64,000 bases of DNA, taken from Thalassotalea sp. LPB0316. GTDB taxonomy: Bacteria > Pseudomonadota > Gammaproteobacteria > Enterobacterales > Alteromonadaceae. Positions 4,638-62,826 of the stretch are shown in pieces. Each line of letters begins with the position of its first letter. The stretch's first letter is position 1. A program made the translations under genes and the position numbers. The notes below the pieces were generated by a model, which did not search any database, had not been told where the DNA came from, and saw only the letters and a program-made list of their open reading frames with translations. The stretch lies in contig NZ_CP062946.1 in assembly GCF_014898095.1 (NCBI RefSeq), positions 62,001-126,000 of the forward strand, written 5' to 3'.

Positions 4638-5110
4638 TTTAACCGCTCCAACAAAACCACAGCGTGTACTGCTATCCCTTCTTGTCGACCGACATAACCT
4701 AACTTTTCAGTGGTCGTTGCTTTGACATTAACTTGTTCGATATCCGCTTGTAAATCTTGTGCTAAACAAGTGCGCATCGCCAATAAATGCGGTGCCATTT
4801 TCGGCGCTTGTGCAGCAATGGTGATGTCAGCATTACCAAGTTTGTAGCCTTTTTCTGTCATTAAGCCGACAACGTGGCGCAATAGAATTCGGCTAGAAAT
4901 ATTTTCATATTGCTCACTGGTATCGGGAAAGTGATTGCCAATATCACCGAGCGCTAGCGCGCCTAAAATTGCATCACATAAGGCGTGAATGGCGACATCA
5001 CCGTCTGAATGCGCGATGAAACCCTGTGGGTAGTCAATCTCAACACCGGCAAGTACGATCGGCCCTTGACCGCCAAATTTATGTACGTCAAAACCGTGAC
5101 CTATTCGCAT
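4634..5110 (-). CDS. ispF: 2-C-methyl-D-erythritol 2,4-cyclodiphosphate synthase
   Basis: Fifth enzyme of the MEP isoprenoid pathway; cyclises CDP-methylerythritol 2-phosphate with release of CMP. The 158-residue protein begins [13 protein letters not shown] (metal-binding Asp and His), has [24 protein letters not shown] with the second His ligand, and ends with the [21 protein letters not shown] signature. The 10-nt overlap with ispD upstream shows that the two pathway enzymes are co-translated. Full length with no anomalies. Confidence 0.97.
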
Positions 5111-5829
5111 ATTGTTTCCTGATTTGATAACTGTTGATTCGATAAAATAAATTTCGCTAACGCTAAATCTTCTGGACGGGTGATTTTGATATTATCACTG
5201 GCGCCTTCAATTAGCTGGCTCGGCTCATTAGCAAGTTCCATAGCCGATGATTCATCAGTAATCACCTTGTTTTGCGCAAGCCCTGCTACAATCGCGTCAA
5301 TTAATTTTACTGTTGGGTACATCTGTGGCGTTAAGGCGTGCCATAAGACACTGCGTTCAACGGTTTCGGCAACCGAGCCATCGCTAGATGAACGTTTAAT
5401 CGTATCTTTGGCAGGATAAGCTAACAAACCACCTTGATTGGCAGATAGACAGTGGTTAATTAACTGGTCAATATCTGAAGTTTTAACGCAAGGTCTGGCG
5501 GCATCGTGAACCAATACCCAGTCATAACCTATCGCTTGTACGCGATACAGCCCAGCTAACACAGAGTCGACTCGCTCTTGGCCTCCAATAACCGTTTCGA
5601 CATTGGGGTGATTAACTAATGATGTATCGGCAAAATAGCCGTCATTTTCACCTAAGGCGATGATAACTTTGTCGATACTTTGATGTGATAACAATCGCTC
5701 AACCGTATGCTCTAGCACGGTTTTATGATTAATCGTTAAATATTGTTTAGGACAAGCAGACTGCATCCGTTTGCCAACACCCGCTGCCGGAACAACGACA
5801 GCCAAGTTTGGCGATTCTTGCTTATTCAA
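5101..5829 (-). CDS. ispD: 2-C-methyl-D-erythritol 4-phosphate cytidylyltransferase
   Basis: Third enzyme of the MEP pathway; joins CTP and methylerythritol 4-phosphate. The 242-residue protein has the nucleotide-binding motif [19 protein letters not shown] near the N-terminus, the [10 protein letters not shown] motif about residue 107, and ITDESSAME, then [13 protein letters not shown] at the C-terminus, all diagnostic. It overlaps ftsB by 8 nt and ispF by 10 nt. The C-terminal tail after the family domain is Ser/Asn/Gln-rich and probably unimportant. Confidence 0.96.
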
Positions 5830-6142
5830 TGATGATTTCCTTGGCTTGATTATCTAACGCTTCTTCTTTGTGGGTTGGGATCACGCGAAAAAACACTTCA
5901 TCTTCTTTAATTAAGCCAAGTTCATTTCTCGCGCGCTCTTCAATGGCTTCAACCCCTGACTTTAAATCGTCAATTTCGGCATAAAGAATTTTGTTGCGCT
6001 GTTTAAGTTTCTCATTATCGGCTGCTTGGCGGGTAACTTCATCTTTGAGCGCCAAATAATCCGGCACTGAATTTTTACCGAACCAGAGTCGATACTGAAG
6101 TAGCAGTAAAAATGTTATCAGGATTATTGAAACCACACGCAT
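5822..6142 (-). CDS. ftsB: Cell division protein FtsB
   Basis: Small bitopic division protein that forms the FtsQ-FtsB-FtsL complex in the inner membrane. The 106-residue protein has an N-terminal transmembrane segment ([20 protein letters not shown]), a heptad-type coiled coil (about 30-70, with [17 protein letters not shown]) and the conserved [18 protein letters not shown] block. It is the first gene of the minus-strand operon; the 97 nt upstream (6143-6239) are AT-rich and probably contain its promoter, which I could not define precisely. Confidence 0.93.
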
Positions 6143-6239
6143 GGCGCTGAGTAAACTTATATTGATATGTCTTACTAGGTATTATAAAAGGGTGATCAGT
6201 TAAGTAAATTAAAATTATTATAAATTACTGTTAATACCA

Positions 6240-6872
6240 CTATCTCAAAGGTGGAGCAGGCTTTCGTAAGTTTTTCCAATTTATTGTGCAAGAGAGTAAT
6301 AATTCACGCAACGACAGCCGCTTAGGTTGTGTTTTTTGTTGATTGACCCAACGATGGCCAGCACAGGCAAGCATCAAAGCGCGCTTGCTTGGCTTGATCA
6401 CCTGCCAACCTTTTTCTGCCATAGTATCTGCTCGCTCATCTCGATAATAAAACCAACCGTGGGTATTGGTTCGATAACGACCATTGGCAAGATCAATGCG
6501 ATCAATCGAATCTAGGGTGAAACCTTGCTGTGTTTGAATGGGAATAACTAACCCTACAGTTAACGGCTTCGCACTATACCATTGTTTGATCGCGTCAATA
6601 TCACTGGCGTAATCTGACATTTTAGCGCTTTGCTTTAATGACCAACTGCCGTTTTGCACATCAAGCGTCATCGGCGTTTCACATAAGGTCATGTAATCAG
6701 CCGTGCGTTTGATGTAATAAGGTAAGCTTTTTAATCTCGCCTGCAGCCCTTGGACACTCAACTGTGAAGAATTGGCAAGCGTAGCTAACTCTCGTTCATA
6801 CAACGCATTACATAATTTGGCATAATCGTCATTATGCGCAACATCATTTTGCCAAAGTAGTGCTTGGGTCAT
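6240..6872 (-). CDS. Conserved hypothetical protein, 210 aa
   Basis: I do not recognise the family. It is a soluble-looking protein with no signal peptide or membrane segment. It has a central block KPLTVGLVIPIQTQQGFTLD followed by DLANGRYRTNTHGWFYYRDE, and a basic C-terminus (LRKPAPPLR). The gene is flanked by non-coding gaps of about 95 nt on both sides and runs in the same direction as ftsB, so it is probably a separate unit. The ATG at 6872 is the only plausible start. Confidence 0.7.
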   Translation of the reverse strand: MTQALLWQNDVAHNDDYAKLCNALYERELATLANSSQLSVQGLQARLKSLPYYIKRTADYMTLCETPMTLDVQNGSWSLKQSAKMSDYASDIDAIKQWYSAKPLTVGLVIPIQTQQGFTLDSIDRIDLANGRYRTNTHGWFYYRDERADTMAEKGWQVIKPSKRALMLACAGHRWVNQQKTQPKRLSLRELLLSCTINWKNLRKPAPPLR

Positions 6873-47859: not shown

Positions 47860-49101
47860 ATGGAAGCGATATTAAATACCTATTTAGTTGGTGGTGCAGT
47901 GCGCGATGAATTACTTGGCCGCAAAGTCATTGAACGCGACTACGTTGTGGTTGGCGCAACCACGCAGCAAATGCTCGAACTTGGTTTTTCCCCCGTAGGT
48001 AAAGACTTCCCTGTTTTTTTACATCCTCAAACCAAAGAAGAATACGCATTAGCGCGGACAGAAAAAAAGCAAGGTGTAGGCTATCAAGGGTTTGTTTGTT
48101 ATGCCTCCCCCGATGTTAGCCTAGAAGACGATTTAAAGCGCCGTGATCTCACCGTCAATGCCATGGCAAAATCTTCATCAGGTGACATTATTGATCCATT
48201 TAATGGCCAGCAAGATCTTGAAAACAGAGTGCTACGCCACGTCAGTGATGCCTTTGTTGAAGATCCACTGCGCGTACTTAGAGTCGCCCGCTTTGCCGCT
48301 CGCTATTTTGACTATGGCTTTAGTGTTGCCCGTGAAACCATGGCATTAATGGCTGAAATAGTAAATCGAGGTGAGCTTGAGCACCTTTCCGCTGAGCGCG
48401 TATTCAAAGAGTTTGATCGCTCACTTGCCGAAGATCATCCAGAAGTATTTATTCAAGTGCTCAAAGACTGCGGTGCACTTAAAGCGATTTGGCCAAGCTT
48501 AAATAAATTGTGGGGGATCCCAAACCCAGCCAAATGGCACCCTGAAATTTGTTCCGGCATTCACACCATGATGGTGCTGCAACGCGCTGTCGCATTATGC
48601 GCAAAGCCAGCCGTTAGATTTGCTGCGCTGTGTCATGATTTAGGTAAAGGACTAACCGACGAAGCGAAATGGCCGAGCCATCACGGCCACGAAAGCGCCG
48701 GCCTGCCATTAGTAAAAGAGATATGCCAAAAACTCAAAGTGCCAAAAAGCTATGAGTTACTCGCCTTGCAAGTGTGTCAATTTCATTTGCACTGCCACAA
48801 AGCGTTTGAGTTAAACCCCAAAACCATTTTAAAGATGTTCAATAGCCTCGATGTTTGGCGAAAGCCCGAGAATTTTGACGATTTTTTAATTGCCAACAAA
48901 GCAGATTTTCAAGGCCGAACCGGCTTTGAAGATCGCGACTACCCACAAGCCGATTACTTAAAAGCCTGTTTTGACGCTTGCCAAAAAATCACAGCTAAAC
49001 CATTTGTTGAACAAGGCTTAAAAGGCAAAGAGATCAAAGATGCGATGAATGCTGAGAAAATTCGCGTGTTAACTCAATTAAAAGCCCAGCAGAAAAATTA
49101 A
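47860..49101 (+). CDS. cca: Multifunctional CCA-tRNA nucleotidyltransferase
   Basis: Adds and repairs the tRNA 3' CCA end. The 413-residue protein has the class II nucleotidyltransferase motif LVGGAVRDELLG with RDYVVVGATTQQ, RRDLTVNAMA, and DPLRVLRVARFAARY, followed by an HD phosphohydrolase domain (ALCHDLGKGLT) that gives the 2',3'-cyclic phosphodiesterase/phosphatase activities of the gammaproteobacterial form. AAAGGA lies before the ATG. An imperfect terminator follows. Confidence 0.95.
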   Translation: MEAILNTYLVGGAVRDELLGRKVIERDYVVVGATTQQMLELGFSPVGKDFPVFLHPQTKEEYALARTEKKQGVGYQGFVCYASPDVSLEDDLKRRDLTVNAMAKSSSGDIIDPFNGQQDLENRVLRHVSDAFVEDPLRVLRVARFAARYFDYGFSVARETMALMAEIVNRGELEHLSAERVFKEFDRSLAEDHPEVFIQVLKDCGALKAIWPSLNKLWGIPNPAKWHPEICSGIHTMMVLQRAVALCAKPAVRFAALCHDLGKGLTDEAKWPSHHGHESAGLPLVKEICQKLKVPKSYELLALQVCQFHLHCHKAFELNPKTILKMFNSLDVWRKPENFDDFLIANKADFQGRTGFEDRDYPQADYLKACFDACQKITAKPFVEQGLKGKEIKDAMNAEKIRVLTQLKAQQKN

Positions 49102-49155: not shown

Positions 49156-49225
49156 AAACGAATTATTTGATCTTGGTTAATTCTTGAACTAATTTTTTAG
49201 TCATCCAATATTCAAAGGAATGAAT

Positions 49226-50482
49226 ATGACTTTATTTAGGCAGGAAGCTATTGCTCATCAAAGTGAACGGTTAACGGGTGAAATTTCACTTGCCCAACCG
49301 CTATCTATCAAGCTTACCGTTGCATTACTCGTTGCTACCGCGATTGTCATTGTATGCTTTCTTTTTAACGCTCAGTATGCGCGCAAAGAAACCGTACGCG
49401 GTTTTCTAATGCCAAATAAGGGCGTGATCAAAAGCTTTGCCGGCCAAGGTGGCACAGTAGAAAAACTCTGGGTGAGCGAAGGTACGCACATTGAGAAAGG
49501 CCAACCAATTGCGACACTGATTTTACACAAAAATAGTAAAAATGGCGTTTCATTAAGCACCGAAATAATCGCCCAGTTAACTGAACAACGCACGCTAATT
49601 GATGATGAAATTAATCAATATAGCTTGCTTGAAGCGACTGAAAAACAAAACCTAACCACCCGAAAAACCGCACTATCGTTAGAAAAACAAGCACTAGAGC
49701 AACAACAGCTACTGGCTAACCAAAAACTAACACTACTTATCGAGCAATTAGCCGATATCGAATCACTCAAGCAAAAGGGCTATGTTGCCAAATTAGATGC
49801 CGAGCGCCATAAACAAGCATTGATCGACGCTCAGCAAGAAAAACAACAAGTCGATCGCTTGTTATTAAAACACGATAATCAATTGCGCCAAATAGACTTT
49901 GAATTGGCAAACTTACCCAGAGAATACACGCTAAGAGTTAATAACTTACGCCGACAAAAAGCCGATATTGAAAACCAATTAAGTCAAGTTAAAAGCAACT
50001 ATCAGTATACGGTTACCGCAAGCCACGCCGGCACAATAACCGGTATTCAAGTCGTGGAAGGTGAAACCCTATCGCCATCTAAAGCCCAATCAAAACCCTT
50101 ATTACATATCTTGCCAGAAGGCTCAGAGCTAGTTGCTGAGATTTTATTGCCAACGCGCTCAGCCGGGTTTATCGAGTTAGGCCAAGATACACGCCTGCGT
50201 TTTGATGCCTTTCCTTACCAACGCTTTGGCTTTATTGAAAGTGAAATCACCCGCATTGATCGGGCACTGATAGCCCCTAATGAAGTGCAACTACCAATTG
50301 CCCTGCAAGAGCCGGTATATCGATTGCGGGCGACATTAAATCAACAGCAAATAAGCGCTTATGGCAAAGCCTTTAACCTAAAAAGTGGCATGTTATTTCA
50401 GGCCGATATCATGTTAGAAAAACGCTCATTAATAGAATGGCTCTTTGAACCCATCTATAGTTTAAAAGGCAGGATCAGTTAA
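49226..50482 (+). CDS. HlyD/CvaA-type periplasmic adaptor for peptide export
   Basis: Membrane fusion protein of a type I peptide secretion system, 418 residues. One N-terminal membrane helix (about 28-50), a lipoyl-like half-motif (TVEKLWVSEGTHIEKGQPIATL), a long coiled-coil hairpin (about 110-250), the second half-motif (TVTASHAGTITGIQVVEGETL) and a beta-barrel/C-terminal ending FEPIYSLKGRIS, as in CvaA-like proteins. The ATG at 49226 has AAAGGA at proper distance; another ATG lies two codons earlier. It is the first gene of the locus, with the precursor peptide 153 nt downstream. A TolC channel is not in the window. Confidence 0.9.
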   Translation: MTLFRQEAIAHQSERLTGEISLAQPLSIKLTVALLVATAIVIVCFLFNAQYARKETVRGFLMPNKGVIKSFAGQGGTVEKLWVSEGTHIEKGQPIATLILHKNSKNGVSLSTEIIAQLTEQRTLIDDEINQYSLLEATEKQNLTTRKTALSLEKQALEQQQLLANQKLTLLIEQLADIESLKQKGYVAKLDAERHKQALIDAQQEKQQVDRLLLKHDNQLRQIDFELANLPREYTLRVNNLRRQKADIENQLSQVKSNYQYTVTASHAGTITGIQVVEGETLSPSKAQSKPLLHILPEGSELVAEILLPTRSAGFIELGQDTRLRFDAFPYQRFGFIESEITRIDRALIAPNEVQLPIALQEPVYRLRATLNQQQISAYGKAFNLKSGMLFQADIMLEKRSLIEWLFEPIYSLKGRIS

Positions 50483-50488
50483 GTAATA

Positions 50489-50617
50489 CGAAAAGGATTT
50501 CGGGTTTTGCTCTTCCAACCAATGAGCAAAATCTGGAAAAGGAGTGATTAGGCGTGCTAATCACACAATCGCTAACTCAATGACGAGTTAGTTATTCAAA
50601 CCCGATATGAATATCGG
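50489..50617 (+). promoter_or_regulatory. Five consecutive hairpins in the leader of the peptide gene
   Basis: Between the adaptor stop and the peptide start are five dyads: CGAAA/TTTCG (50489-50502); TTTTGCTC/GAGCAAAA (50505-50531, extendable to 11 bp with G-U pairs); GTGATTAG/CTAATCAC (50544-50564); CTAACTC/GAGTTAG (50572-50591); CCGATA/TATCGG with TGAA loop (50602-50617). None has a long T tract. The array probably forms a structured 5' leader, an mRNA-processing region or regulator-binding sites. AAGGAG of the peptide gene follows at 50622. Confidence 0.65.
50554..50583 (+). CDS. Possible 9-codon leader peptide
   Basis: AAAAGGAG at 50537-50544 lies 9 nt before GTG (50554), which opens nine codons (MLITQSLTQ) ending at TGA 50581-50583. 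The ribosome site is one of the best in the locus, and translation would disrupt the third and fourth hairpins. Speculative, but it is the only reason I see for such a strong ribosome site within the leader. Confidence 0.3.
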   Translation: MLITQSLTQ

Positions 50618-50635
50618 ATACAAGGAGAAAATATT

Positions 50636-50824
50636 ATGCGTGAATTGAGCGTAAATGAAGTAGAAGCAGTAAATGGTGGTAATGATGAAAGCAAAGAGAA
50701 ATCAAGTAAACCCAAAAGTAAATTAGCAAAGATAATTGCTGTAGGTGAAGTTATATATGATGAGCTTTCAAGTATTGATTGGGGAGACTCTATGGATGAT
50801 CCTGATACAAATTTAGCGCCTTAG
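50636..50824 (+). CDS. Microcin/bacteriocin-like precursor with double-glycine leader, 62 aa
   Basis: The leader MRELSVNEVEAVNGG (15 residues) matches the class II microcin pattern, and its layout corresponds position by position to the microcin V leader as I know it. C39-type exporters cut after GG, and such an exporter is encoded 0.8 kb downstream. The 47-residue core begins NDESKEKSSKPKSKLAK and ends MDDPDTNLAP. It has a Lys-rich N-terminal third, a hydrophobic patch (IIAVGEVIY) and an acidic end; I count 6 Lys against 11 Asp/Glu. It has no Cys and one Trp. AAGGAG precedes the ATG. Activity (bacteriocin or signal) is inferred, not shown. Confidence 0.85.
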   Translation: MRELSVNEVEAVNGGNDESKEKSSKPKSKLAKIIAVGEVIYDELSSIDWGDSMDDPDTNLAP

Positions 50825-50833
50825 CTATAGATT

Positions 50834-50864
50834 AAAGCACTATCATCCTGATTGATAGTGCTTT
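50834..50864 (+). terminator. Hairpin after the peptide gene (possible partial terminator)
   Basis: AAAGCACTATCA / TGATAGTGCTTT, a perfect 12-bp stem with a 7-nt loop, ends in TTT then CC. The short T tract suggests partial termination or mRNA 3'-end protection, giving more peptide than downstream product. Confidence 0.6.
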
Positions 50865-50925
50865 CCATAAATTCAAATTAACTATAAATACTACATTTAA
50901 ACTAAAATCCTAAAATGACGTAAAA

Positions 50926-51615
50926 ATGAGAAATAAAGAAAATATAAACTGGAGTATTACGGAAACATTTTGGTTAGGCATTGGTATTGTTATAATGTCT
51001 ACTATATTTGATGTAATCGCATTCAAAACATTAAACTCTATATCGATTAAAGTTGAAAATGCTAAGATAATAATGCAGATATTACATCAGTTATTTATTA
51101 TTTTTTTACTGATCTTTTTAAAAACATGTAAAACCAAAGATAGTTTATTAAAGTACTTCGAGTTTAATAAAACACTCAAAATAAAGGATGTATGCAAATA
51201 TTTCACAGCTTATTTTCTATTACTTGTCATCGAGTATTTTATAAGTAATTTAAACGCCGGTAGTTTTAATGACCTTTCTAAAGATACTACCTATTACACA
51301 AATGCTATTCCTTATTTTTTATTGATCGTATTAATAGCACCTATAGCAGAAGAGCTTTTTTTTAGAGGGTTCCTTTATAAAGGTTGGTGTGAAAATGCAA
51401 AAAACAAATACATTGGATATATTTCGATAAGCTTTTTATTTACTCTACTACATTGGCAAACATATGACCTTTTGGCACTAGCTTGGATTTTTCTTTTTTC
51501 TGTGTTCTTATGTCATATTAGAAATCACTCACAAACAATAACTGCCCCCATATTAATTCATAGCCTCAACAATTTAATTGGCTTTTTATCTTTATACATA
51601 AATTTTGAGTTTTAA
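50926..51615 (+). CDS. CPBP-family intramembrane protease, candidate immunity protein
   Basis: 229-residue, strongly hydrophobic protein (about six to seven helices) of the CPBP/Abi family. The catalytic motifs are present: EELFFRGFLYKG (EExxxR), LLHWQ (His in the second motif) and HSLNNLIGF (HxxxN). In bacteriocin loci such proteins confer self-immunity; others cleave leaders or regulators. The gene is very AT-rich: two 60-nt lines have 12 and 17 G+C, versus 29 in a line of the following ABC gene. That suggests separate acquisition. The start ATG lacks a clear ribosome site. It is 12 nt before the transporter gene. Confidence 0.86.
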   Translation: MRNKENINWSITETFWLGIGIVIMSTIFDVIAFKTLNSISIKVENAKIIMQILHQLFIIFLLIFLKTCKTKDSLLKYFEFNKTLKIKDVCKYFTAYFLLLVIEYFISNLNAGSFNDLSKDTTYYTNAIPYFLLIVLIAPIAEELFFRGFLYKGWCENAKNKYIGYISISFLFTLLHWQTYDLLALAWIFLFSVFLCHIRNHSQTITAPILIHSLNNLIGFLSLYINFEF

Positions 51616-51627
51616 TCTGGTAAATTT

Positions 51628-53763
51628 ATGTCTGAGCTACTATCATTTTCTCTAAGAAAAAAATTTCCTCCCCTAATCCTCCAAACTGAAGTCGCAGAAT
51701 GCGGCCTAGCCTCATTGGCGATGATATTGTGCTACTACGGTCACGAAGTTGACTTACCCGCAATGCGCAAGCGGTTTTCTGCTGATTTAAAAGGCATGAA
51801 CCTCCAGCAACTTATAGAACTAGCCGACTCATTAAATCTAGCAAGTCGCGCCTTGCAATGCCCTATTGATGAAGTCTATAAGCTTCAAACACCGTGCATT
51901 TTACATTGGGATATGAATCATTTTGTCGTCTTAACTAAAGTCAATGGTAAAGGCGCTAACGCGAAGTTTTCTGTTAACGATCCCGCCGTCGGCAAGAGAA
52001 CGCTAAAACATGAAGAATTTAGCAAGCATTTTACGGGTATCTGTTTAGAGCTAACGCCAACCAATAAATTTGAGAAGAAAAAAGAAAGCGCTCAAATGAA
52101 GTTGTCACAGCTTTGGAGCTCAATGAGCGGTTTAAAAACAGGCTTGTTAAAACTCATTGGTTTATCTTTGGTACTTCAACTTTTCGCATTAATGTCGCCT
52201 TATTATATGCAGTGGGTGGTCGATGAGGTCTTAGTGAGTTTTGATCACTCACTGCTGACCATATTAGCACTTGGTTTTGCCTTGATTGCCATCATTTCAA
52301 CGATTACCACAACCGTGCGTAGCTGGCTTATTTTACGGTTATCGAGTTTACTCAATATGCAAATGGGGGTGAATTTACTACGTCACTTGTTTCGTTTGCC
52401 AATGAGCTATTTTGAATCGCGCCATGTCGGCGATGTGGTTTCAAGGTTTGGTTCACTCGATCAGATTCGAGAGCGCATTACCACAGGTTTTGTTGAAACC
52501 TTAGTCGATGGAGTCATGGCGATTACCGTGCTAGTAATGATGGCACTGTACTCAATAAAATTAACCGCCGTTGTACTGGCTGCCATCGCCTTATATACCA
52601 TAGTTCGTTTGGCGTTATATCGCCCGTTACATCAAGCTACCGAAGAAATGATCCAAAGCTCCGCTAAGGAGCAGTCAAATTTTTTAGAGAATATTCGCGG
52701 TATTCAAACCATCAAACTGTTTGCCAATGAGCCTCAACGCCAAGGTATTTGGCAAAATCGCTATGCCGAAGTGATCAACAATGAAATACGTTTAGGCCGG
52801 CTTAACATCAGTTTTGACGCCTTTAATAAATTGCTGTTTGGCTTAGAAAATGTGCTGGTGATTTACCTCGCTGCGACCATGGTGATGGCCAATAGTTTAA
52901 CCGTAGGTATGGTACTGGCGTTTATCGCCTATAAAAATCAATTAACCTCGCGCTTTGCCAGTTTAATTGAACAAATTATTCAATTTAAAATGATGCGCTT
53001 ACACCTTGATCGTATTGCCGATATCGCCCTCACACCAGAAGAATCTCATCGCGATGGCCAGCACATAACACAAGACTTTAAAGGCCAATTAAGCTTGGAA
53101 AACATCAGTTTTCGTTATAGTGACGACCAGCCAACAATTTTAGAAAATATCAATCTAACTCTATCTGTTGGTGATTCTATTGCAATCACCGGCCCATCGG
53201 GCGCAGGAAAAACTACTTTAATGAAAATCATGCTCGGGCTACTACAACCAAGCTCGGGTAAAGTGTTGTTAGATGGTAAAGATATCAACCATATTGGGCT
53301 AACGAACTATCGCAAAAATATTGCTGCCGTGATGCAAAACGACACCCTACTCGCCGGCTCTATCGCTGACAACATCTGCTTTTTTGACCCTCAACCTAAT
53401 TATTTAAAAATAGAGCAATGTGCTCACTTAGCTGCGATCCATGAAGATATTGAACAAATGACTATGGGCTACAATTCACTCGTTGGCGATATGGGATCAA
53501 ACCTCTCCGGTGGTCAGATTCAGCGACTATTATTAGCTCGCGCTTTATATCAATCACCTTGCGTATTGTTTATGGATGAAGCCACTAGCCACCTAGACAA
53601 ATCGAATGAGGCCAAAATCAGTGAACAAATCAAACACCTCACGATGACCCGCGTTATGATAGCCCATCGCCAAGAAACAATTAGCATGGCAGATAGCGTA
53701 TTGGTTTTACAAAATAAACAACTGATCGAGTTGACATCCCCTGACAAAAAAACCGCAATTTAA
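51628..53763 (+). CDS. C39-peptidase ABC transporter, CvaB-like processing exporter
   Basis: 711-residue bacteriocin-type ABC exporter. The N-terminal C39 Cys-protease has its Cys in EVAECGLASLAM, His in HWDMNHFVVL and Asp in VNDPAVG, so it should be active. Six transmembrane helices follow (about 165-440), then the ATPase: Walker A GPSGAGKTT, signature NLSGGQIQRLLLARAL, Walker B CVLFMDEATSHLD and the His-loop MIAHRQET. It would cut the precursor after GG and export it through the adaptor and a TolC-type channel. The gene has normal base composition, unlike the CPBP gene before it. Confidence 0.94.
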   Translation: MSELLSFSLRKKFPPLILQTEVAECGLASLAMILCYYGHEVDLPAMRKRFSADLKGMNLQQLIELADSLNLASRALQCPIDEVYKLQTPCILHWDMNHFVVLTKVNGKGANAKFSVNDPAVGKRTLKHEEFSKHFTGICLELTPTNKFEKKKESAQMKLSQLWSSMSGLKTGLLKLIGLSLVLQLFALMSPYYMQWVVDEVLVSFDHSLLTILALGFALIAIISTITTTVRSWLILRLSSLLNMQMGVNLLRHLFRLPMSYFESRHVGDVVSRFGSLDQIRERITTGFVETLVDGVMAITVLVMMALYSIKLTAVVLAAIALYTIVRLALYRPLHQATEEMIQSSAKEQSNFLENIRGIQTIKLFANEPQRQGIWQNRYAEVINNEIRLGRLNISFDAFNKLLFGLENVLVIYLAATMVMANSLTVGMVLAFIAYKNQLTSRFASLIEQIIQFKMMRLHLDRIADIALTPEESHRDGQHITQDFKGQLSLENISFRYSDDQPTILENINLTLSVGDSIAITGPSGAGKTTLMKIMLGLLQPSSGKVLLDGKDINHIGLTNYRKNIAAVMQNDTLLAGSIADNICFFDPQPNYLKIEQCAHLAAIHEDIEQMTMGYNSLVGDMGSNLSGGQIQRLLLARALYQSPCVLFMDEATSHLDKSNEAKISEQIKHLTMTRVMIAHRQETISMADSVLVLQNKQLIELTSPDKKTAI

Positions 53764-53846: not shown

Positions 53847-53952
53847 TTGGATTTATCAATTTTTGTACTAGGCTCAAATAACTAAAAGTGCTGGCTGAAC
53901 AAGCTGGACTATCAGTCAATGCCAAATAACCTAGCATTCATAGGAATTGAGT

Positions 53953-56900
53953 ATGAACTTGTTAAAAAAAATAATACCTTGCTGTTTTAAGGTTATCCTA
54001 CTCTTAAGTTCACTATTTTTGATAACTAGCTGTTCAGATAGTGGTAATGATGTCAACGACATTGTCGTTCCCGAACCCCCTGCGCCACCTGAGCCACCTC
54101 AGCCCCCTGAACCAGACCCAGTATCGTTTTCAGGCGGCGGTGTTAAAGGTCCCATGGCCTTAGCTGAAGTCAATGTCTATCAAATAGACCCTAGTGCAGA
54201 TGGCTTTAAAGGAGAATTAGTTGGCAGTGCAGCGACCAATGCACAAGCACAAATAGAAAATCTAGCCCTCACTCCCCCACTCTCCCCACCTTATTTACTC
54301 GAAATTACGGCAGTTGAAGGCACGATAGACATAACCACAGGGTTAAGCCCGGTAATCACGCAAGTTAATACATTATTAACCCAGCAAATGATCGATGAAG
54401 AACTTGCGATCTATGCGACACCACTTACCGACATGACGGTCGCACTCATCTTTAAAAATGCCGATAGCAACGTTGCGCCATACACAGGTAACAACGATGG
54501 TGAAACGACGCTAGAAGAAATAATCGCAGCAATGCCGGCAGCCCAAAGCCAAGTAAAATCAACCTTAGGTTTTGGTTTAACTGACGACATCGATATTTTT
54601 ACCACGCCGCCATTGATCGATGACTCAACAGATAGTCTTGAAGAGCAAACGTCAACCACTGCTTACCGTAGCGCAGTAGAAGCATTAACCGCCGTAGTCT
54701 ACGAGATGCAACAACTCTCCGGCGATGGCGAAGCTACAACCGATGATATTATTGATGATATGGCTGCCGATTTATCAGATGGCATGATCGACGGTCAAGC
54801 CGACGGCGAGAGCACTGCGAGCTATCCTGAGCAAGCACTCGATGTGTTAGCGCAAGACCCTGCAACATTACCCATTCCAAATGATCCCTCTGGCCGTAAG
54901 GTATCAGACGTAAAAGACGTAGTGGTTGGTGAAACTCAGCAAACAGGCCAAGAGGATACCGACACTTCTGAATTTGAAGAATCGGAAGAGGTGATAGTTG
55001 TTAAGCCAGCAAAAACCTCACCGGATATCGACGGCGATGGTGTGCTTAACGACAAAGATGCCTTCCCTGAATCAGCTGCTGCTGATAAAGATACCGACAA
55101 AGACGGCACGCCAGACGTCAGTTACATTGTTGTTGACGGCGTTCGTACTGAAGAAATCGATGAGGCGAACTCAGATCCTGATGATGATAACGACGGTGTT
55201 AAAGATGTAAATGATGCCTTCCCACTCGATAAAAATGAATTTAGAGATACCGATGAAGATGGTATCGGTAACAATGCCGATGACGATGACGATGGCGACG
55301 GCGTACTAGATGTTGATGATGACTTCCCACTCGATGGTACTCGTTCAGATGCTGTCGATCAAGACAGTGATGGCTGGCCACAAGGGCAAGATAGCGACGA
55401 TAGTGACGACAGTGTGCCAGAGCAAGATTTTGTCGATACCGACGGTGATGGTTTAGCTGATAACGGTGGCATTGCGCCAGACTCAGATGATGATAACGAC
55501 GGTGTCTCTGACGACGACGACGCTTTTCCACTCGATGCCACAGAATCAAGTGACCAAGATAACGATGGCATTGGCGATAACACAGATACAGATATTGACG
55601 GTGACAACGTACCGAATAACCAAGATTTATTCCCGCGTAATCCTAAAGAATCAGTAGATACCGATCGTGACGGTATTGGTAATAACAAAGATAAAGACGA
55701 CGATGGCGATGGCTTAGATGACGAACGCGAAGCTTTGCTTGGCACCGATCCTCTTGATATCGACACTGATAACGATGGCGCACTAGACGGCAAAGATGCC
55801 TTCCCATTAAATCCGTTAGAGCGTTTTGACAGCGACAAAGATTCAATCGGCAATGAAACCGATAACTGTCCATTAGTTGCCAATACCGGCCAAATAGATA
55901 CCGACCAAGATGGCTTTGGTGATTTATGTGACAAAGATGATGACAACGACGGTGTACCAGATGTTGAAGATGACTTCCCACTTGACGGTACCAGAAGTGA
56001 ATCAAGCGACGCTGATAGCGACGGTTGGCCAAGTGATCAAGATCCTGACGACAATGATGCTAATAATCCAGGTACCGATTTTATCGATACTGATGGCGAC
56101 GGTATAGGCAACACAACGGATACCGATGATGATGGCGATGGCTTTGCCGACGACCAAGATCAATTCCCATTAGATATCAATGAATGGCGTGATAGCGACC
56201 AAGATGGCATCGGTAATAACGCCGATACGGATGACGATAATGATCAGTACTTAGATAGCGATGAAATTGCTGCCGGCTCAGATCCATTAGACGGGCAAGA
56301 TTTACCCGCCGATTTTGACGGAGATTTCATTCCTGACGTTAATGATGGCGACATCGATGGTGATGGTGTAGCTAATGGCGATGACGCCTTCGACTTCAAC
56401 CCTGAAGAATCAGTTGACTCAGACGAAGATGGTGTTGGCGACAACAGCGATGCCTTCCCTAACGATCCAACTGAAACTGTAGATACAGATCAAGATTTAA
56501 TCGGCGATAATAGCGATAACTGCCCATTAATTGAAAACCCTGACCAAATCGACGTTGACCAAAACGGTGTTGGCGATGCATGTGATCAATACAGCTTTGA
56601 TTTAACGGGTACTTGGTTAGCATCCGAAGTCATTAGCTTTGATCAGAACGATCCAAAATGCAGCGTGCATGAAAACGACACTTGGTTATTATCAATTGAA
56701 ATGAACCAAGGCGAACTCTTCATCAAAGATGCTGATGATGAGCACGATGATGACGGTGCCGTGGGAACAGTCGATTTCGCGGGTAACATCACATTAATGA
56801 CAATGGATGAAGATGATGACTTTATCGCCCAAGAAGCTTTCTATGATAAAGACACAGGAGTTATCACCATTGCATACAGCCAAACGTTTGATAAAGACAC

Positions 56901-59900
56901 GGCAACAGAGTGTGCCGTAACCGGTACATTAACCGCCACCCAATTTGAGCCTACCAATGAGCAAGTAGCCTTTACTGATGGCATTGCGTGGTTTGAAAGT
57001 GACATGGACTACACTAGCGCTGGTACTATTGAATTATTCTATGAATATGGTGTGATTTCACAAAGTGGCCCAGAATCTATTTTCTACTTCGATAGCGAAA
57101 CTAACGCTTGGGTTGTAGCTAATGATGAAGACAATGATGACTACGTGTTAACACCAGAAGGTATTCGTGTTGACCCAGATATTTTTGAAGTTGAAAGCTT
57201 TGGTGAAAACGGTGAAACAGCCATTATTTCGACAGGCGCGATTGACGAGCAAATCGAATTACTTGCTACGCCAATTAACGGCATTATGCAGCTTGCCCTG
57301 CTCGAAGATGAATTTTATGGCACGATAGCCAAAGATGCCGTCTTCAGCGAAGGCGCAATCGCCTACATTCCAATTGTTGAAGGGCTAAACGATACCTTTA
57401 GCTTCTGGTGTGATAACGATTTTATTAGCGATATCAACCCTGAGCTCGTCTGTAGCAACGGCATCGTATTGTCTTGGAACGAGGGTGATTTTAACTTAGC
57501 TCAGACAATCGACGATCTAGTTAATGTTTCTGGCTCTCCTGTTGATCAAATGCAAGGTTCAATCTGGTTAGGCGCTGGCAACGGGTATGATGTCCAAGCA
57601 TTCTTTGTATCAGACAATGGCCAAGCCGATGGTGCAAACTTAACAGCCAATATCTATAAGTTCAGTTACGACGGTACTATGCCAGAGCTCTATGAGTCTG
57701 TTGCTATCACCATGGATATGGTTGGTTCGACAGCTGCATATAGCTTTATGGTCCCAGCCGCCCTGCAGGCAGCTTTAGATATTGATATCGAAGATGCTGT
57801 TCCTATGGTATTTGAAGATAGCCAGTTAGAAGGACAAACTATTGTTCGCCAAGGCCACAAGCAGCTAGCAGGTGTCCGAGAGGATACAGGTATCGTCTTT
57901 AACTCCATCGCATTAGCCGACATCCTTGAAAGTTTTGACTTTGTTGATACTGACAATGACGGCCTGCCTGATCCATTAGATGAGGATAAAGATAACGACG
58001 GCATTAAAAATGAAGACGACGCCTTCCCGCTAGATGATTCAGAGACAACGGATACCGATCTAGATGGTATTGGTGATAATACCGACACCGATATCGATGG
58101 CGACGGTGTACTCAACGAAGATGACTTAGATCCTTTTGACGACAGCGTATCGCAAGCGCTGAGCTTTACCGCCAGCGATTTGATTGATGCTTACGTACTT
58201 ATTCTTGATGGCGCGCTTGACGAGCCAACAATGAGATTAGGATTCAACGACGGTGAGCGTTACGATTTCAACGACGGTTTTATGACCAAAAGCACAACCT
58301 TTGGCAGTGATTTTGCCGACTTTGCCTTCGAAGAAAACACCTTAAATCTTTACTTTGATAGTCTTGCTAGCTCGAGCTTTATGACCATTGAGCAAATGCT
58401 TGATATCGGCATGATTTCACAGCAACGCGCTGACGATTTCATCGCCGTGCATGGCAATTATCAAGTGGAAGTTATTATCACCACTGGCTTAACCAAGTGG
58501 CAACGGCTCGAGAGCAGTGCGCCGAACTACAGATTTTGGCAAGTTCAAGAGCAGCAATACTTAATTGCCCCTGAATGGGAGCGAGAACAGTTAACTGGCT
58601 CAACGGCAGAAGTACCTTATGTGACAGAAACAGATGGTAGTTTACTTGAATTAACCGATTACAGTTCAATAGAGACAATCGCTTGGAGCGCTGAAGAAGT
58701 CATGATGCAATGGGCAATGCCGGTAAACATTGACTTTTTCCACGAAAACCAATGGGATCGCAAGCAGTTTGATATTGTTGACTTTGGCGACAATAACACA
58801 GCCGTTTCAGCTATCTTTGGCATTCAAATGAACTGGTCGATTAACAATGACGGTATTCTTGTTATTGATTTAGGTGAAAATGTCCAAATCACGGTACAAA
58901 AAATCAATGATTTTACCACTGGTGTTGGCGCTTTAGTGCAAGCCAGTGATGGTCAAAACACCATTTCGTCATACGAGTTACTCGTGCCACAAAGCTCAGA
59001 CATCAATGTTGAGCCTCTGTTAAATAGCTATTTACAAAATAGTTTTAGCCTGACAAATCCAGATGCCTACAACGACGAAGGCATGCTCAATAGTGATGCC
59101 TACTTTGGCTATCGCTTAGAGACGGGTGGTGATCGCGCTACGCGAATTTACAGTGGCGATTTCAACTTTTACAACGAGCGCGATGGTTGGGACCGTTGGT
59201 ATTGGTCACTAGAGGAAAATAACGACATTAAGCTCAATGCTCTATGGCACAGCTATGACGGCGTTTATGCTTCTTGTTTCTATCAAGAAGACGACGACTG
59301 CAACCGTTGGCGAATCAGAACGTGGCGACCGCTACAAGTAGTCGGCAACAGACTCTATGTACTGGAGTGGGAAGAGCGCAATAACTTTGCCTTCTCGGTA
59401 CCTTCTCAAGAAGAAGAGCTCTATATTGCAATAGCGCCGCGAGTAAACTTCTATGAAGTACTCGACATCGATAGCGATAAAGACCGCATCCTTGACAGCA
59501 TCGACCCAGATGACGACAACGATGGCGTTAACGACCTAGATGATGAATTCCCGTTTGATCCATCAGAGAGTATGGACAGCGACGGCGATCTAATTGGTGA
59601 TAACGCTGATATGGATGACGACAACGATGGCGTGTATGACAAAGACGACGCCTTCCCGCTAGATCCTTTGGAAACAGCGGATACTGACATGGATGGCGTT
59701 GGTGATAACAGTGACCCAGACATTGATGGTGACGGTGCGCTAAATGAAGAGGATGTTGCTCCTTACAATCAAGATGTTGGTGCTGCGATGGCATTTAGCA
59801 GTGACGACTTACTGATGAAATACGTCCATATATCAGAAGGTGCACTCGATGAACCTGATATTGTTTTAGGCTTTAGCAATGGTGAAACTTATAGCTTTTC

Positions 59901-62826
59901 CAATAACGTTTCCCTAAAACAAAGTGCGAGTAAATCACTACCTGGCAGCTATGTCTTAGCTAACGATATACTCACTATCGATTACGACAATGCCGATTCA
60001 TTCACCCAGTACTATCAAGTAATGGATCTGGTTGAGTTCGGTATTGTTGATCAAGCTACAGCGGAATCTTTTATCGAAGTAATGGGTGATTACTACATGG
60101 AAGTGGTAATCGAAACACAAGGCGTGAGTTGGCAATTACTCGAAATGAATGGCGATACTCATGTCTTCTGGCAGCTTGCCTCACAAACACTTTATGTGGT
60201 CGACGACTATTACCGAGAGTTTTTATTCGGCTCAATGGAAGCGCCAGCTCAAAGCTTTATTGGTGAAGGCCAGATAGTCAGCTTGATGGATTTTGACGCA
60301 CTCACCTTTACGCCATGGACAGCACAAGAGTTAAACAGTGACTGGGCTATGCCGATAAAACTTGATTTTGCGATGGCAGAGCTTCCTCAACCACTCAGTG
60401 CTGATATTGTTAATTTTGCCGAAAATAACACAGGTACTACGGCTATCTTTGGCTTGAATTTTACTTGGTTAATTGACGCCGACGGCGTATTAGTCATTAC
60501 GCTTGATTCAGGCGAGATTATCACGCTAGCGAAAGAAGCTGTTTACGATACCGGGGTAGGTGTATTTGCGACTTATACCGTAGGTGAGACAACTTACACT
60601 AACTACAGCTTAGTGGTTGCACAAAACCAAATTGGCGACCTTAGCCAATACACTGACTTGTTCCTGCAAAATAGTTTCAGCTTAACCGACCCTGGAGCTT
60701 ATGATGAAGACGGGATGTTACGTGACGATCGCGTATTTGGTTGGCGATTAGAAAACAACGATAATCTCGTCACACGTATTACCAACGGCGATTTTGATCT
60801 ATCTGAAATGTTCAGCGGCTGGGATCGTTGGTTCTGGGAGTTCACTGTCGATGGTCAAGTGAAAATGACCAGTTTACGCAGTGAATACGGCTCATTTGCT
60901 GACTGTGATCCAGAGAGTGATGATTACTGTGCATACTGGCGAATCAGATACTGGCAACCACTAGCAACCATAGGTGATAGGATCTATGTCCTTGAGTGGG
61001 AGGAAATAAATGATAACGCTTACAGCTTCCCAGCAGAACCACCGGTATGGCGAATTAATATTCCACCGAGAGTACAATTCTATCAAGTGATGGATATCGA
61101 CTCTGACGGCGATGGTATTACCGATGCGCTTGATCCTGATAACGACAACGATGGTGTTAACGATCAAGATGACGAATTCCCATTTGATTCATCAGAGAGT
61201 ATGGACAGCGATGGCGATTCAATTGGTAATAATGCCGATAAGGATGATGACAACGACGGCGTTTATGACGAAGACGACGCCTTCCCGCTAGATCCTTTGG
61301 AAACAGCAGATACTGATATGGATGGGATTGGTGATAACAGTGACCCAGACATTGATGGTGACGGTGCGCTAAATGAAGAGGATGTAGCACCATACGATGC
61401 TCAAGCTGGTAGCTCGGTCGCTTTTAGCACTGACGACTTATTATCAGGTTATGTCCGGATTACCGAAAGTGCGTTGGCAAACCCTGCGGTTCGATTAGGT
61501 GTGCTAGACGGCACACAGTACCTCTTTGACCAAGGCGTTGCGACCAAAAGTGATAGTTTTGGCAGTCAGTCGGCAGACTATTTATTAGAAAATGATGTAC
61601 TGACTATCTACTTTCAAGGAGTCGAAAGTTCAAGCTATGAGAATGTCTCTAGTTTAATCAACAGAGGAATGATTACGCCGGAATTAGGCGAGGCATTTAT
61701 TGAACAACACGGTGACTATCAAGTGTTAGTATCAATTACGACAAGCACGGCAACGTGGCAACAGCTAGAAAGCTCGGCACCCAACTATCGATTTTGGCAA
61801 ACACAACTTCAGGCGTATCTCATCGTAGATGACTGGGAGCGTGAGCAGTTAACAGGCTCTTTAGATCAGGTACCTTTTGAGATGGAATCAGCACAGCTCG
61901 TTGAGCTCATTGATTTAGCTTCGCTGCCATCAATTGCTTGGGTCGCTGAAGATTTAACTGACAATTGGACGATACCGGTTAATATTGACTTTGCCAATGA
62001 AGTGGATTTCAACCGCAAACAAATGGACATCGTATCGTTTAATGAAAACGGCACGGCACTCTCAGATATATTCACTATTTCAATGGATTGGACTATTGAT
62101 GAGAACGGGATATTAATGCTTTCATTAGCTGATAATATTACGGTTAGCATCGAAAAAGTTGAACAATTTGATACCGGTGTTGCTGCTATTGTCATTGCTA
62201 CTGATGGCATGAATACTATGTCATCTTATGAATTCCTCGTGCCGGCTGCGAGTAATATCGATATCTCACCGGTACTAAATAGCTATTTAATGGGCAGTTT
62301 CACGCTAACGAACCCAGACGCATACGACAACGGTATGATCCAAGATGATGCCTTCTTTGGTTATCGCTTAGAGACGGGTGGAGATAGAGCCACTCGAATT
62401 CTCAATGGCAATTTCGACTTCAATAACGAACGAGATGGTTGGGATCGTTGGTTGTGGTCATTAAATGAAAATAATGACATCGTCCTAAATGCGCTTTGGC
62501 AAAGTGACTTTGGTGTCTATCAAGAATGTGACTGGGTCTTTGATGACAACTGCAACCGCTGGCGAATCAGAACATGGCGTCCGCTGCAATTGGTCGGTAA
62601 TAGACTCTATGTCCTCGAGTGGGAAGAGCGCAATAACTTTGCCTTCGACATACCATCAATGGCAGAAGAGCTAACCATGGCCATTGCGCCAAGAATTAAC
62701 TTTTATGAAGTTTATGATATTGATTCTGACAAGGATGGCATATTAGATAGCGTCGATCCTGATGACGACAACGACGGCATCGATGATGAAAACGACGCTT
62801 ATCCATTTGATATACACATGAATTAG
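53953..62826 (+). CDS. Giant modular lipoprotein with thrombospondin-type-3 calcium-binding repeats
   Basis: About 2957 residues. Lipoprotein signal ending FLITSC (Cys 27, next residue Ser, so outer-membrane sorting is likely), then a Pro-rich linker (DIVVPEPPAPPEPPQPPEPD). From about 63 a GVKGPMALAEV-type domain follows. Residues about 356-880 are a long array of DxDxDGxxD repeats. A beta-rich domain covers about 880-1330. Three duplicated ~440-residue domains follow at about 1403-1835, 1946-2381 and 2489-2923, each joined by further repeat arrays, ending with a short array and no sorting tail. I prefer ATG 53953 (AGGAA upstream) over TTG 53947. Probably a surface adhesin or fibre; function unproved. 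Confidence 0.9.
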   Translation: MNLLKKIIPCCFKVILLLSSLFLITSCSDSGNDVNDIVVPEPPAPPEPPQPPEPDPVSFSGGGVKGPMALAEVNVYQIDPSADGFKGELVGSAATNAQAQIENLALTPPLSPPYLLEITAVEGTIDITTGLSPVITQVNTLLTQQMIDEELAIYATPLTDMTVALIFKNADSNVAPYTGNNDGETTLEEIIAAMPAAQSQVKSTLGFGLTDDIDIFTTPPLIDDSTDSLEEQTSTTAYRSAVEALTAVVYEMQQLSGDGEATTDDIIDDMAADLSDGMIDGQADGESTASYPEQALDVLAQDPATLPIPNDPSGRKVSDVKDVVVGETQQTGQEDTDTSEFEESEEVIVVKPAKTSPDIDGDGVLNDKDAFPESAAADKDTDKDGTPDVSYIVVDGVRTEEIDEANSDPDDDNDGVKDVNDAFPLDKNEFRDTDEDGIGNNADDDDDGDGVLDVDDDFPLDGTRSDAVDQDSDGWPQGQDSDDSDDSVPEQDFVDTDGDGLADNGGIAPDSDDDNDGVSDDDDAFPLDATESSDQDNDGIGDNTDTDIDGDNVPNNQDLFPRNPKESVDTDRDGIGNNKDKDDDGDGLDDEREALLGTDPLDIDTDNDGALDGKDAFPLNPLERFDSDKDSIGNETDNCPLVANTGQIDTDQDGFGDLCDKDDDNDGVPDVEDDFPLDGTRSESSDADSDGWPSDQDPDDNDANNPGTDFIDTDGDGIGNTTDTDDDGDGFADDQDQFPLDINEWRDSDQDGIGNNADTDDDNDQYLDSDEIAAGSDPLDGQDLPADFDGDFIPDVNDGDIDGDGVANGDDAFDFNPEESVDSDEDGVGDNSDAFPNDPTETVDTDQDLIGDNSDNCPLIENPDQIDVDQNGVGDACDQYSFDLTGTWLASEVISFDQNDPKCSVHENDTWLLSIEMNQGELFIKDADDEHDDDGAVGTVDFAGNITLMTMDEDDDFIAQEAFYDKDTGVITIAYSQTFDKDTATECAVTGTLTATQFEPTNEQVAFTDGIAWFESDMDYTSAGTIELFYEYGVISQSGPESIFYFDSETNAWVVANDEDNDDYVLTPEGIRVDPDIFEVESFGENGETAIISTGAIDEQIELLATPINGIMQLALLEDEFYGTIAKDAVFSEGAIAYIPIVEGLNDTFSFWCDNDFISDINPELVCSNGIVLSWNEGDFNLAQTIDDLVNVSGSPVDQMQGSIWLGAGNGYDVQAFFVSDNGQADGANLTANIYKFSYDGTMPELYESVAITMDMVGSTAAYSFMVPAALQAALDIDIEDAVPMVFEDSQLEGQTIVRQGHKQLAGVREDTGIVFNSIALADILESFDFVDTDNDGLPDPLDEDKDNDGIKNEDDAFPLDDSETTDTDLDGIGDNTDTDIDGDGVLNEDDLDPFDDSVSQALSFTASDLIDAYVLILDGALDEPTMRLGFNDGERYDFNDGFMTKSTTFGSDFADFAFEENTLNLYFDSLASSSFMTIEQMLDIGMISQQRADDFIAVHGNYQVEVIITTGLTKWQRLESSAPNYRFWQVQEQQYLIAPEWEREQLTGSTAEVPYVTETDGSLLELTDYSSIETIAWSAEEVMMQWAMPVNIDFFHENQWDRKQFDIVDFGDNNTAVSAIFGIQMNWSINNDGILVIDLGENVQITVQKINDFTTGVGALVQASDGQNTISSYELLVPQSSDINVEPLLNSYLQNSFSLTNPDAYNDEGMLNSDAYFGYRLETGGDRATRIYSGDFNFYNERDGWDRWYWSLEENNDIKLNALWHSYDGVYASCFYQEDDDCNRWRIRTWRPLQVVGNRLYVLEWEERNNFAFSVPSQEEELYIAIAPRVNFYEVLDIDSDKDRILDSIDPDDDNDGVNDLDDEFPFDPSESMDSDGDLIGDNADMDDDNDGVYDKDDAFPLDPLETADTDMDGVGDNSDPDIDGDGALNEEDVAPYNQDVGAAMAFSSDDLLMKYVHISEGALDEPDIVLGFSNGETYSFSNNVSLKQSASKSLPGSYVLANDILTIDYDNADSFTQYYQVMDLVEFGIVDQATAESFIEVMGDYYMEVVIETQGVSWQLLEMNGDTHVFWQLASQTLYVVDDYYREFLFGSMEAPAQSFIGEGQIVSLMDFDALTFTPWTAQELNSDWAMPIKLDFAMAELPQPLSADIVNFAENNTGTTAIFGLNFTWLIDADGVLVITLDSGEIITLAKEAVYDTGVGVFATYTVGETTYTNYSLVVAQNQIGDLSQYTDLFLQNSFSLTDPGAYDEDGMLRDDRVFGWRLENNDNLVTRITNGDFDLSEMFSGWDRWFWEFTVDGQVKMTSLRSEYGSFADCDPESDDYCAYWRIRYWQPLATIGDRIYVLEWEEINDNAYSFPAEPPVWRINIPPRVQFYQVMDIDSDGDGITDALDPDNDNDGVNDQDDEFPFDSSESMDSDGDSIGNNADKDDDNDGVYDEDDAFPLDPLETADTDMDGIGDNSDPDIDGDGALNEEDVAPYDAQAGSSVAFSTDDLLSGYVRITESALANPAVRLGVLDGTQYLFDQGVATKSDSFGSQSADYLLENDVLTIYFQGVESSSYENVSSLINRGMITPELGEAFIEQHGDYQVLVSITTSTATWQQLESSAPNYRFWQTQLQAYLIVDDWEREQLTGSLDQVPFEMESAQLVELIDLASLPSIAWVAEDLTDNWTIPVNIDFANEVDFNRKQMDIVSFNENGTALSDIFTISMDWTIDENGILMLSLADNITVSIEKVEQFDTGVAAIVIATDGMNTMSSYEFLVPAASNIDISPVLNSYLMGSFTLTNPDAYDNGMIQDDAFFGYRLETGGDRATRILNGNFDFNNERDGWDRWLWSLNENNDIVLNALWQSDFGVYQECDWVFDDNCNRWRIRTWRPLQLVGNRLYVLEWEERNNFAFDIPSMAEELTMAIAPRINFYEVYDIDSDKDGILDSVDPDDDNDGIDDENDAYPFDIHMN
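58159..62720 (+). repeat. Three tandem ~1.63-kb coding repeats in the giant gene
   Basis: Domain copies start near 58159, 59788 and 61417, a steady period of about 1.63 kb. Shared blocks include DLxxxYVxIxEGALxEP, FWQxxxQxYLI, WAMPxxxDF, NSFSLTxPxAY, WDRWxW, CNRWRIRTWRPLQ and RLYVLEWEERNNFAF. Copies one and three are closer to each other than to copy two. The linker arrays before copies two and three are nearly identical in DNA (59642-59757 and 61272-61386). Confidence 0.85.

Follow-up and report, generated by a model that had tools for sequence, protein, structure and literature searches.

A microcin-like peptide cassette behind a structured leader element in Thalassotalea sp. LPB0316

What does the small peptide encoded at a four-gene export locus of Thalassotalea sp. 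LPB0316 do, and which parts of the system are new? The locus lies in a 64,000-nucleotide stretch of contig NZ_CP062946.1 (positions 62,001 to 126,000, forward strand). This stretch is called the window here, and its own numbering is used throughout. Judged from sequence, the locus is probably a class II microcin-type bacteriocin cassette, carried in a fixed export chassis and provided with an immunity protein of the CPBP family. Its four genes are the following.

49220..50482, + strand: HlyD-type periplasmic adaptor of 420 amino acids (PF13437 and PF16576 above cut-off)
50636..50824, + strand: precursor peptide of 62 amino acids, with GG at residues 14-15 and a mature part of 47 amino acids
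50926..51615, + strand: CPBP (CAAX/Rce1-type) membrane protein of 229 amino acids, the likely immunity protein (PF02517)
51628..53763, + strand: C39 peptidase-ABC (ATP-binding cassette) exporter of 711 amino acids, for processing and export (PF03412, PF00664 and PF00005 above cut-off)

A sequence-only reading had described four co-directional genes, and all four frames are indeed intact, open and on the + strand, in the order adaptor, precursor, CPBP protein, exporter. It had placed the adaptor start at 49226, which is the second ATG; the frame opens at 49220. Its description of a GG-leader precursor with its own adaptor and C39 exporter agrees with the position of the GG and with the Pfam matches. 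The intact Cys/His/Asp triad which it reported was located by motif as C25, H98 and D118, and the membrane protein to which it gave the immunity position is encoded by the gene next after the precursor.

The C39 domain of the exporter matches PF03412 with an E-value of 1.2e-33, and the ATPase motifs are also present. Relatives in the PDB are HlyB (2e-100) and an ABC-type bacteriocin transporter (8e-95). At E ≤ 0.001 the one-contig genome of 3.55 Mb has a single Peptidase_C39 match, which is the cassette exporter. The adaptor scores 124 bits against TIGR01843, under the cut-off of 208.65. A TolC of the type I secretion family (TIGR01844, 356.8 bits, above cut-off) is encoded elsewhere, at C1:1325524-1326777, and presumably pairs with the cassette exporter.

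Removal of the leader after GG by C39 exporters and export along the HlyD-TolC path are established for the family. In the mechanism proposed here, the coding part of the 62-residue precursor would be preceded by a leader of three hairpins, whose probable role is to control translation or to protect it. The C39 domain would cut the precursor after GG, and the exporter, the HlyD adaptor and the distant TolC would send out the acidic 47-mer. The variable middle of the peptide may form a membrane-active helix, and its conserved tail (DWG...NLAP) could serve for recognition, either by a factor of the target cell or by the immunity protein. The CPBP protein would shield the producer, by analogy with the CAAX-family protein McsI of microcin S, described below.

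Exchange of cargo between adaptor and exporter

Relatives of the exporter at E ≤ 1e-120 occur in 109 of 196 genomes of the family Alteromonadaceae. The 60 best-scoring loci outside the genus and four loci within it yielded 42 HlyD-to-C39 slots longer than 150 nucleotides. Leader patterns identify at least one GG/GA-leader peptide in 36 of these slots, beside varied membrane proteins, so that peptide genes do lie between adaptor and exporter in relatives, a synteny which the sequence-only reading had proposed as a check. CPBP proteins are found in 13 of the 42 slots, and all 13 have the EExxxR motif.

The closest comparisons are with T. eurytherma JCM 18482 (two loci) and T. loyana LMG 22536 (one locus), which have the same chassis as the window. 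Two GG peptides and a different membrane protein lie between adaptor and exporter in each of these slots; no second GG/GA-leader peptide was found in the window slot. The two full HlyD-cargo-C39 loci of T. eurytherma stand in tandem (L032:3595-13816), a duplication with different cargo. A neighbour outside the system is also conserved:

47860..49101, + strand: cca, tRNA nucleotidyltransferase (PF01743, PF12627, PF01966), conserved left neighbour

The cca gene flanks the T. loyana locus (89% identical to that of the window) and both T. eurytherma loci (81% and 60%).

Across nine loci, the transmembrane regions of the exporter are 78-88% identical to the window, and its first 70 residues, adjacent to the slot, 55-78%. 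The guanine-plus-cytosine (GC) content of the cassette departs from that of the chassis. In the CPBP gene it is 27.0%, against 42.6% for the window, and this value is below those of all 633 sliding 690-nucleotide windows tested. The variety of slot cargo, the gradient of exporter identity and the composition of the CPBP gene together indicate that the peptide and its neighbouring membrane protein are swapped jointly, as a cassette. The comparison supports an exchange of leader, peptide and CPBP gene as one unit between conserved HlyD and C39 genes. Close plasmid-borne relatives of the peptide were not found by tblastn at E ≤ 1; the nearest plasmid exporter among the matches listed lies on a Shewanella oneidensis MR-1 plasmid (67.8%).

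Some loci of the sample carry other cargo. Tandem, nearly identical short GG peptides (MKELNxNEVQGIxGG...) stand downstream of C39 exporters at L093, L205 and L206, and are unlike the slot cargo. At L070 (G123, oriented 5505-6464) the immunity position is taken by a 319-residue membrane protein with the sequence AGMSGGAYS, which we take to be a rhomboid-like motif; perhaps another intramembrane protease is used for immunity there. L082 (G027, oriented 3859-6070) has a GG-like peptide followed by two open reading frames of about 314 and 328 amino acids, which we assume to be ATP-grasp-like, as in graspetide clusters.

The structured leader element

The region before the precursor gene, and a hairpin behind it, contain the following features.

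50483..50635, + strand: untranslated leader with four predicted hairpins, at about 50498-50538, 50544-50564, 50567-50596 and 50602-50617, and inverted repeats
50543..50638, + strand: conserved structured element, R1 (32.1 bits, E 1.1e-4, model positions 1-131)
50618..50627, + strand: AUACAAGGAG, a Shine-Dalgarno sequence overlapping a hypothetical CsrA-like RUACARGGA site
50834..50864, + strand: perfect 12-base-pair hairpin behind the precursor gene, which may stabilise the 3' end or act as a partial terminator

The leader RNA folds with -46.9 kcal/mol (z -4.21), and none of 200 shuffled sequences is equally stable. R1 is a covariance model, searched with cmsearch, in which a structure of 29 pairs was hand-drawn from an alifold prediction plus the last hairpin. 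It was trained on an alignment (A5) of 17 HlyD-peptide gap regions from other genomes, the window being left out. In A5, 90.4% of cells are paired against 83.0% in shuffles, both-sided changes occur at 15 of the 29 pairs against 8.5, and the covariation is 0.281 against 0.152. None of 500 shuffles reaches the pairing, change or covariation values, and when the partners are shifted by one to three columns the pairing falls to 52% or less. A second alignment (A7) takes 37 matches at loci that had not entered the training set; it has compensatory change at 28 of 29 pairs and a covariation of 0.540 against 0.207 in shuffles (0/500). These values lean to the model, to which A7 was fitted, and some of its rows are close relatives of training rows. 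One row (L297) is a weak opposite-strand match overlapping a good one.

At E ≤ 0.01 the model gives 54 matches in 31 of the 196 family genomes, spread over 16 of 52 genera. All but five end no more than 3 nucleotides from the start of a GG/GA-leader peptide (49/54), and 47 end exactly on its ATG; when the 13 training-set matches are removed, 36 of the 41 left end at such a start. One exception precedes an interrupted GG peptide (G104:C1:632061), one of 60.8 bits precedes another open reading frame, and the remaining three are weak (30.9-37.2 bits). The window match likewise has its end on the ATG of the precursor; this copy is diverged, and the first of its hairpins is short. The only other match within the 64 kb has an E-value of 8.9. 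A search of 295 genomes of the order at E ≤ 0.001 found the element in four, of which three are Alteromonadaceae and the fourth comes from a different family; the window's own genome falls below the threshold there. In the genome of the other family the element again precedes a peptide, which is matched by the leader part of the tail profile described below.

We read the three-hairpin element as a putative cis-regulatory leader RNA. Given its place at the ribosome-binding site, it would act most likely on translation or mRNA stability. Like the leader RNAs catalogued in Rfam 15, it is a structured 5' leader near a start codon. A known family is excluded as far as Rfam goes: no match overlaps the element in the window at gathering cut-offs, or at six related loci at E ≤ 1. 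If the reading is right, the element is a sequence handle for microcin-like peptides that are missed by core-based searches. Its use for finding such peptides follows from the 14 of 49 peptide-linked matches for which the nearest 50 kb of the contig contain no listed exporter.

Binding of CsrA at the leader site is a weaker guess, possible but doubtful. The window site AUACAAGGA equals the first nine letters of the CsrA consensus RUACARGGAUGU, obtained by SELEX (systematic evolution of ligands by exponential enrichment; PMC7652899, cited, like the other papers given by PMC number here, from partial text), with all six RUACAR letters before GGA, and the genome has a csrA gene. Among 32 element-linked starts, 8 have at least five of the six letters before GGA; among 374 control starts, 15 do (p 1.3e-4, uncorrected for relatedness). 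The 12-mer form with a score of 9 or more separates the two sets less well (5/32 against 18/374). The published SELEX sites are mostly in hairpin loops (PMC7652899), unlike the window site. It is the position outside a loop, together with the relatedness of the sequences, that keeps the guess at this level.

The hairpin behind the precursor has a z-score of -5.05, and none of 200 shuffles is equally stable. Perfect hairpins of at least 8 base pairs occur within 90 nucleotides after the last GG/GA peptide in 14 of 36 slots, against 2.1% in shuffles. This hairpin may uncouple strong expression of the peptide from that of the CPBP protein and exporter. It is not among the matches of the terminator scan, which gave 6 terminator-like sites against 4.3 in shuffles; the promoter scan gave 9 against 14.6. 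There is thus no or little excess over chance in either scan.

The element can be repeated. A short contig of one genome (G058:C227; L072, L312, L315) holds five peptide genes and so forms an array of several cassettes. Every one of the five has a leader element of its own in front, and some of the gaps between the genes encode small membrane proteins. A further hairpin, of the TTTTTCTG...CAGAAAA type, is seen upstream of the modelled element in many leaders, those of L074, L067 and L061 among them.

The tail family and its CPBP partner

The precursor can be divided into three parts, the last of which is contained in the second.

50636-50680, + strand: precursor leader MRELSVNEVEAVNGG, ending in GG and conserved in relatives
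50681-50821, + strand: predicted mature 47-mer, net charge -5, computed average mass 5137.6, unmodified
50777..50821, + strand: conserved C-terminal tail DWGDSMDDPDTNLAP (alignments A2-A4)

It appears to belong to a new, unnamed family, whose members have variable cores and, at the C-terminus, a conserved tail that is acidic. A first search with the precursor found one relative besides itself; genome searches and two profile rounds gave 97 matches at E ≤ 1. In 43 of the 97, all of which were checked, the signature WG...A[PA] stands at the very C-terminal end (52 of the sequences were read individually, and two of the 43, P0033 and P0036, are apparently one gene). The tails are of the type DWGxSMxxPDTNLAP or WGTASYEDMMLAP. 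They end in DTNLA[PA] in 17 peptides, in MMxAP in 21 and in an intermediate form in 5, the last two letters being AP in 40 and AA in 3. The region between leader and tail varies in length and composition among relatives, and the profile matches without a tail mostly have the leader in common.

Full-length profile matches are found in 7 of 395 family genomes, namely that of the window, four of Glaciecola type, Colwellia sp. RSH04 and T. sediminis. In the order as a whole, 7 of 394 genomes have a match to the tail profile A2 at E ≤ 0.001, and the sole full-length match is that of the window. In a two-sequence profile search at E ≤ 10 most partial matches cover the leader only and carry little information on the tail. 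One tail relative (P0012) passes the NCBI class IIb bacteriocin model TIGR03949 with 25.9 bits against a cut-off of 21.5, mostly over the leader, and a PDB search with the A4 profile finds the carnobacteriocin B2 precursor (E 0.0044). That the precursor is a random open reading frame is ruled out by the existence of a diverged family in which both leader and C-terminus are conserved.

The window CPBP protein matches PF02517 with 66.8 bits (cut-off 22.4, E 2.1e-18) and has the three CPBP/Rce1-like motifs EExxxR, FxxxH and HxxxN, as EELFFR, FTLLH and HSLNN. A profile search of the PDB with the CPBP alignment found no CPBP structure. PF02517-type proteins are encoded directly downstream of the tail peptide in the window, at the Glaciecola-type loci and in Colwellia RSH04. 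The T. sediminis tail peptide is encoded some 462 kb away from the exporter listed for that genome, and has its own leader element and a CPBP neighbour of 160 amino acids (PF02517 26.7 bits, cut-off 22.4). A CPBP protein thus stands beside the tail peptide at four of four independent loci (the window, the group of Glaciecola, Opacimonas and Alteromonas sp. LMIT006, Colwellia sp. RSH04, and T. sediminis). Of the other GG slots, 7 of 30 have one, a difference with p 0.007 in a small, after-the-fact Fisher test. In this count the three Glaciecola-type slots were taken as one, as were L078 and L080, T. sediminis was added, and other related slots were left uncollapsed.

We lean somewhat towards a joint claim, that structured leader RNAs of a class missing from the catalogues specifically control the GG-leader, microcin-like peptides of Alteromonadaceae (as defined by GTDB) and move along with every exchangeable peptide-immunity cassette, and that the tail peptides form a new bacteriocin family, with killing cores that vary and a constant C-terminal module that CPBP-type immunity proteins read.

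Known systems and rival explanations

In lactic acid bacteria and streptococci, Abi/CAAX proteins at bacteriocin loci were reportedly described in 2010 by Kjos et al., who are said to have proposed a role in self-immunity. As in the window, these Gram-positive loci combine a GG-leader bacteriocin with a CPBP-family protein, but they have no HlyD/TolC path through the envelope. Class II microcins have a GG precursor, a peptidase-containing ABC transporter with Cys/His/Asp, a membrane fusion protein, TolC and a membrane protein of fewer than 250 residues adjoining the peptide (PMC9746304); these have counterparts in the window, except for TolC, whose counterpart is encoded elsewhere in the genome. 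The Cys-His spacing of 73 in the window C39 domain is that of Cys32 and His105 in CvaB (PMC9746304). The window core is unrelated to class II microcins at the level of the libraries searched; such cores are said to be highly variable (PMC9746304). As no core similarity was found and the activity is predicted only, the system is filed as microcin-like and not as a verified microcin.

The closest known arrangement is the microcin S operon mcsS-mcsI-mcsA-mcsB of E. coli G3/10, which likewise encodes a small peptide, a CAAX-family protein, an HlyD-family adaptor and a peptidase-domain ABC exporter, without a dedicated TolC (PMC3316575). McsI, a CAAX-family protein of 216 amino acids, protected E. 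coli on its own (PMC3316575). The gene order differs, and microcin S lies on a megaplasmid whereas the window locus is chromosomal. The structured leader and the tail family are features of the window that go unmentioned for microcin S in the portion of PMC3316575 consulted. The Cdz system of Caulobacter crescentus resembles the window in its type I exporter pair, its one or two small secreted peptides and its small membrane immunity protein, a role that is putative in the window. Glycine zippers are present in the Cdz peptides, which remain at the cell surface (PMC5380434), whereas no zipper is evident by eye in the window peptide.

Two claims to novelty in the sequence-only reading did not survive this comparison. 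CPBP immunity as a first is ruled out by microcin S, with its published CAAX-family immunity and the same four components (PMC3316575). Occurrence outside Enterobacteria is preceded by Cdz in Caulobacter and by Cdz-like loci found in many bacteria, the gamma-proteobacteria above all (PMC5380434). What appears to be new had been missed: the swap of cargo in a conserved chassis as a cassette pattern of this family, the tail family and, above all, the structured element. No published description of any of the three was found in the open-access library searched.

The reading as a microcin-type cassette with CPBP immunity has several observations weighing against it. The window precursor has no match above cut-off in Pfam or NCBIfam. 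Its mature part is acidic and hydrophilic, with a grand average of hydropathy of -0.81, which is odd for a membrane-active peptide, and the AlphaFold2 model from the precursor alignment is of low confidence (mean predicted local distance difference test score 57), with a helix at residues 29-45. The Glaciecola-type loci have an HlyD-peptide gap of only about 40 nucleotides, and so possess the tail without the leader element; tail family and element are thus separable. The CPBP neighbour in T. sediminis lacks EExxxR, and in Caulobacter a CaaX protease gene near cdz was dispensable for Cdz killing (PMC5380434). To these are added two precedents from other bacteria: for the Naps of Neisseria, which promote autolysis, no antimicrobial activity could be detected (PMC11798529), and small secreted proteins with a GG motif are reported to act in the biofilm of Synechococcus. 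They would suit an exported signal, biofilm or self-lysis factor with a membrane protein that tunes the response, as would the acidic, hydrophilic peptide. Such a role is nevertheless improbable here: cargo that changes from slot to slot, each time with a membrane protein to match, is what toxin-immunity pairs would be expected to show, both the pairing of tail and CPBP protein and the case of microcin S speak for immunity, and the stretch of four genes shows no gene for a receptor or regulator.

CPBP proteins are intramembrane proteases. With its catalytic motifs intact and the tail and CPBP gene co-occurring, the window protein could instead serve maturation, as a protease by which the peptide is trimmed or activated and which perhaps recognises the conserved tail, immunity being encoded elsewhere. 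We hold this to be unlikely, if less so than a signalling role: McsI confers immunity alone, CPBP proteins also accompany tail-less peptides (8/31 such slots), the loss of EExxxR in T. sediminis tells against proteolysis as well, and no other immunity candidate is seen in the window slot. The structured element might, on another account, work as DNA, a recombination or insertion site by which peptide cassettes move. It does mark cassettes, including the five tandem ones on the G058 contig, and slot cargo is clearly exchanged; however, the element is one-sided, is fixed just before the Shine-Dalgarno sequence and ATG (two matches end within 3 nucleotides of the ATG besides the 47 exactly on it) and is kept where no listed exporter is near, which makes this explanation more improbable still than signalling. 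Least probable of the four is a Cdz-type system, with aggregates on the producer surface that kill by contact. The type I secretion genes, the GG-type leaders, the small membrane proteins and the two glycine-rich peptides of T. eurytherma locus B would fit it, and loci of this kind are said to be frequent among gamma-proteobacteria, in most cases with a single toxin (PMC5380434). Yet no glycine zipper is evident by eye in the aligned tail relatives either, and the 62-residue precursor is at the low end of the published range of 60-151 residues (PMC5380434), with many relatives shorter.

If the microcin-type reading with CPBP immunity is right, the constant tail and varied cores are a natural experiment on the targets of class II peptides and on the mechanism of CPBP immunity. 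It would also raise the question of how marine bacteria time the production of peptide weapons after transcription.

Directly downstream of the cassette, at 53947-62826, lies an open reading frame of 2959 amino acids with many Asp-rich repeats and a lipoprotein-like start.

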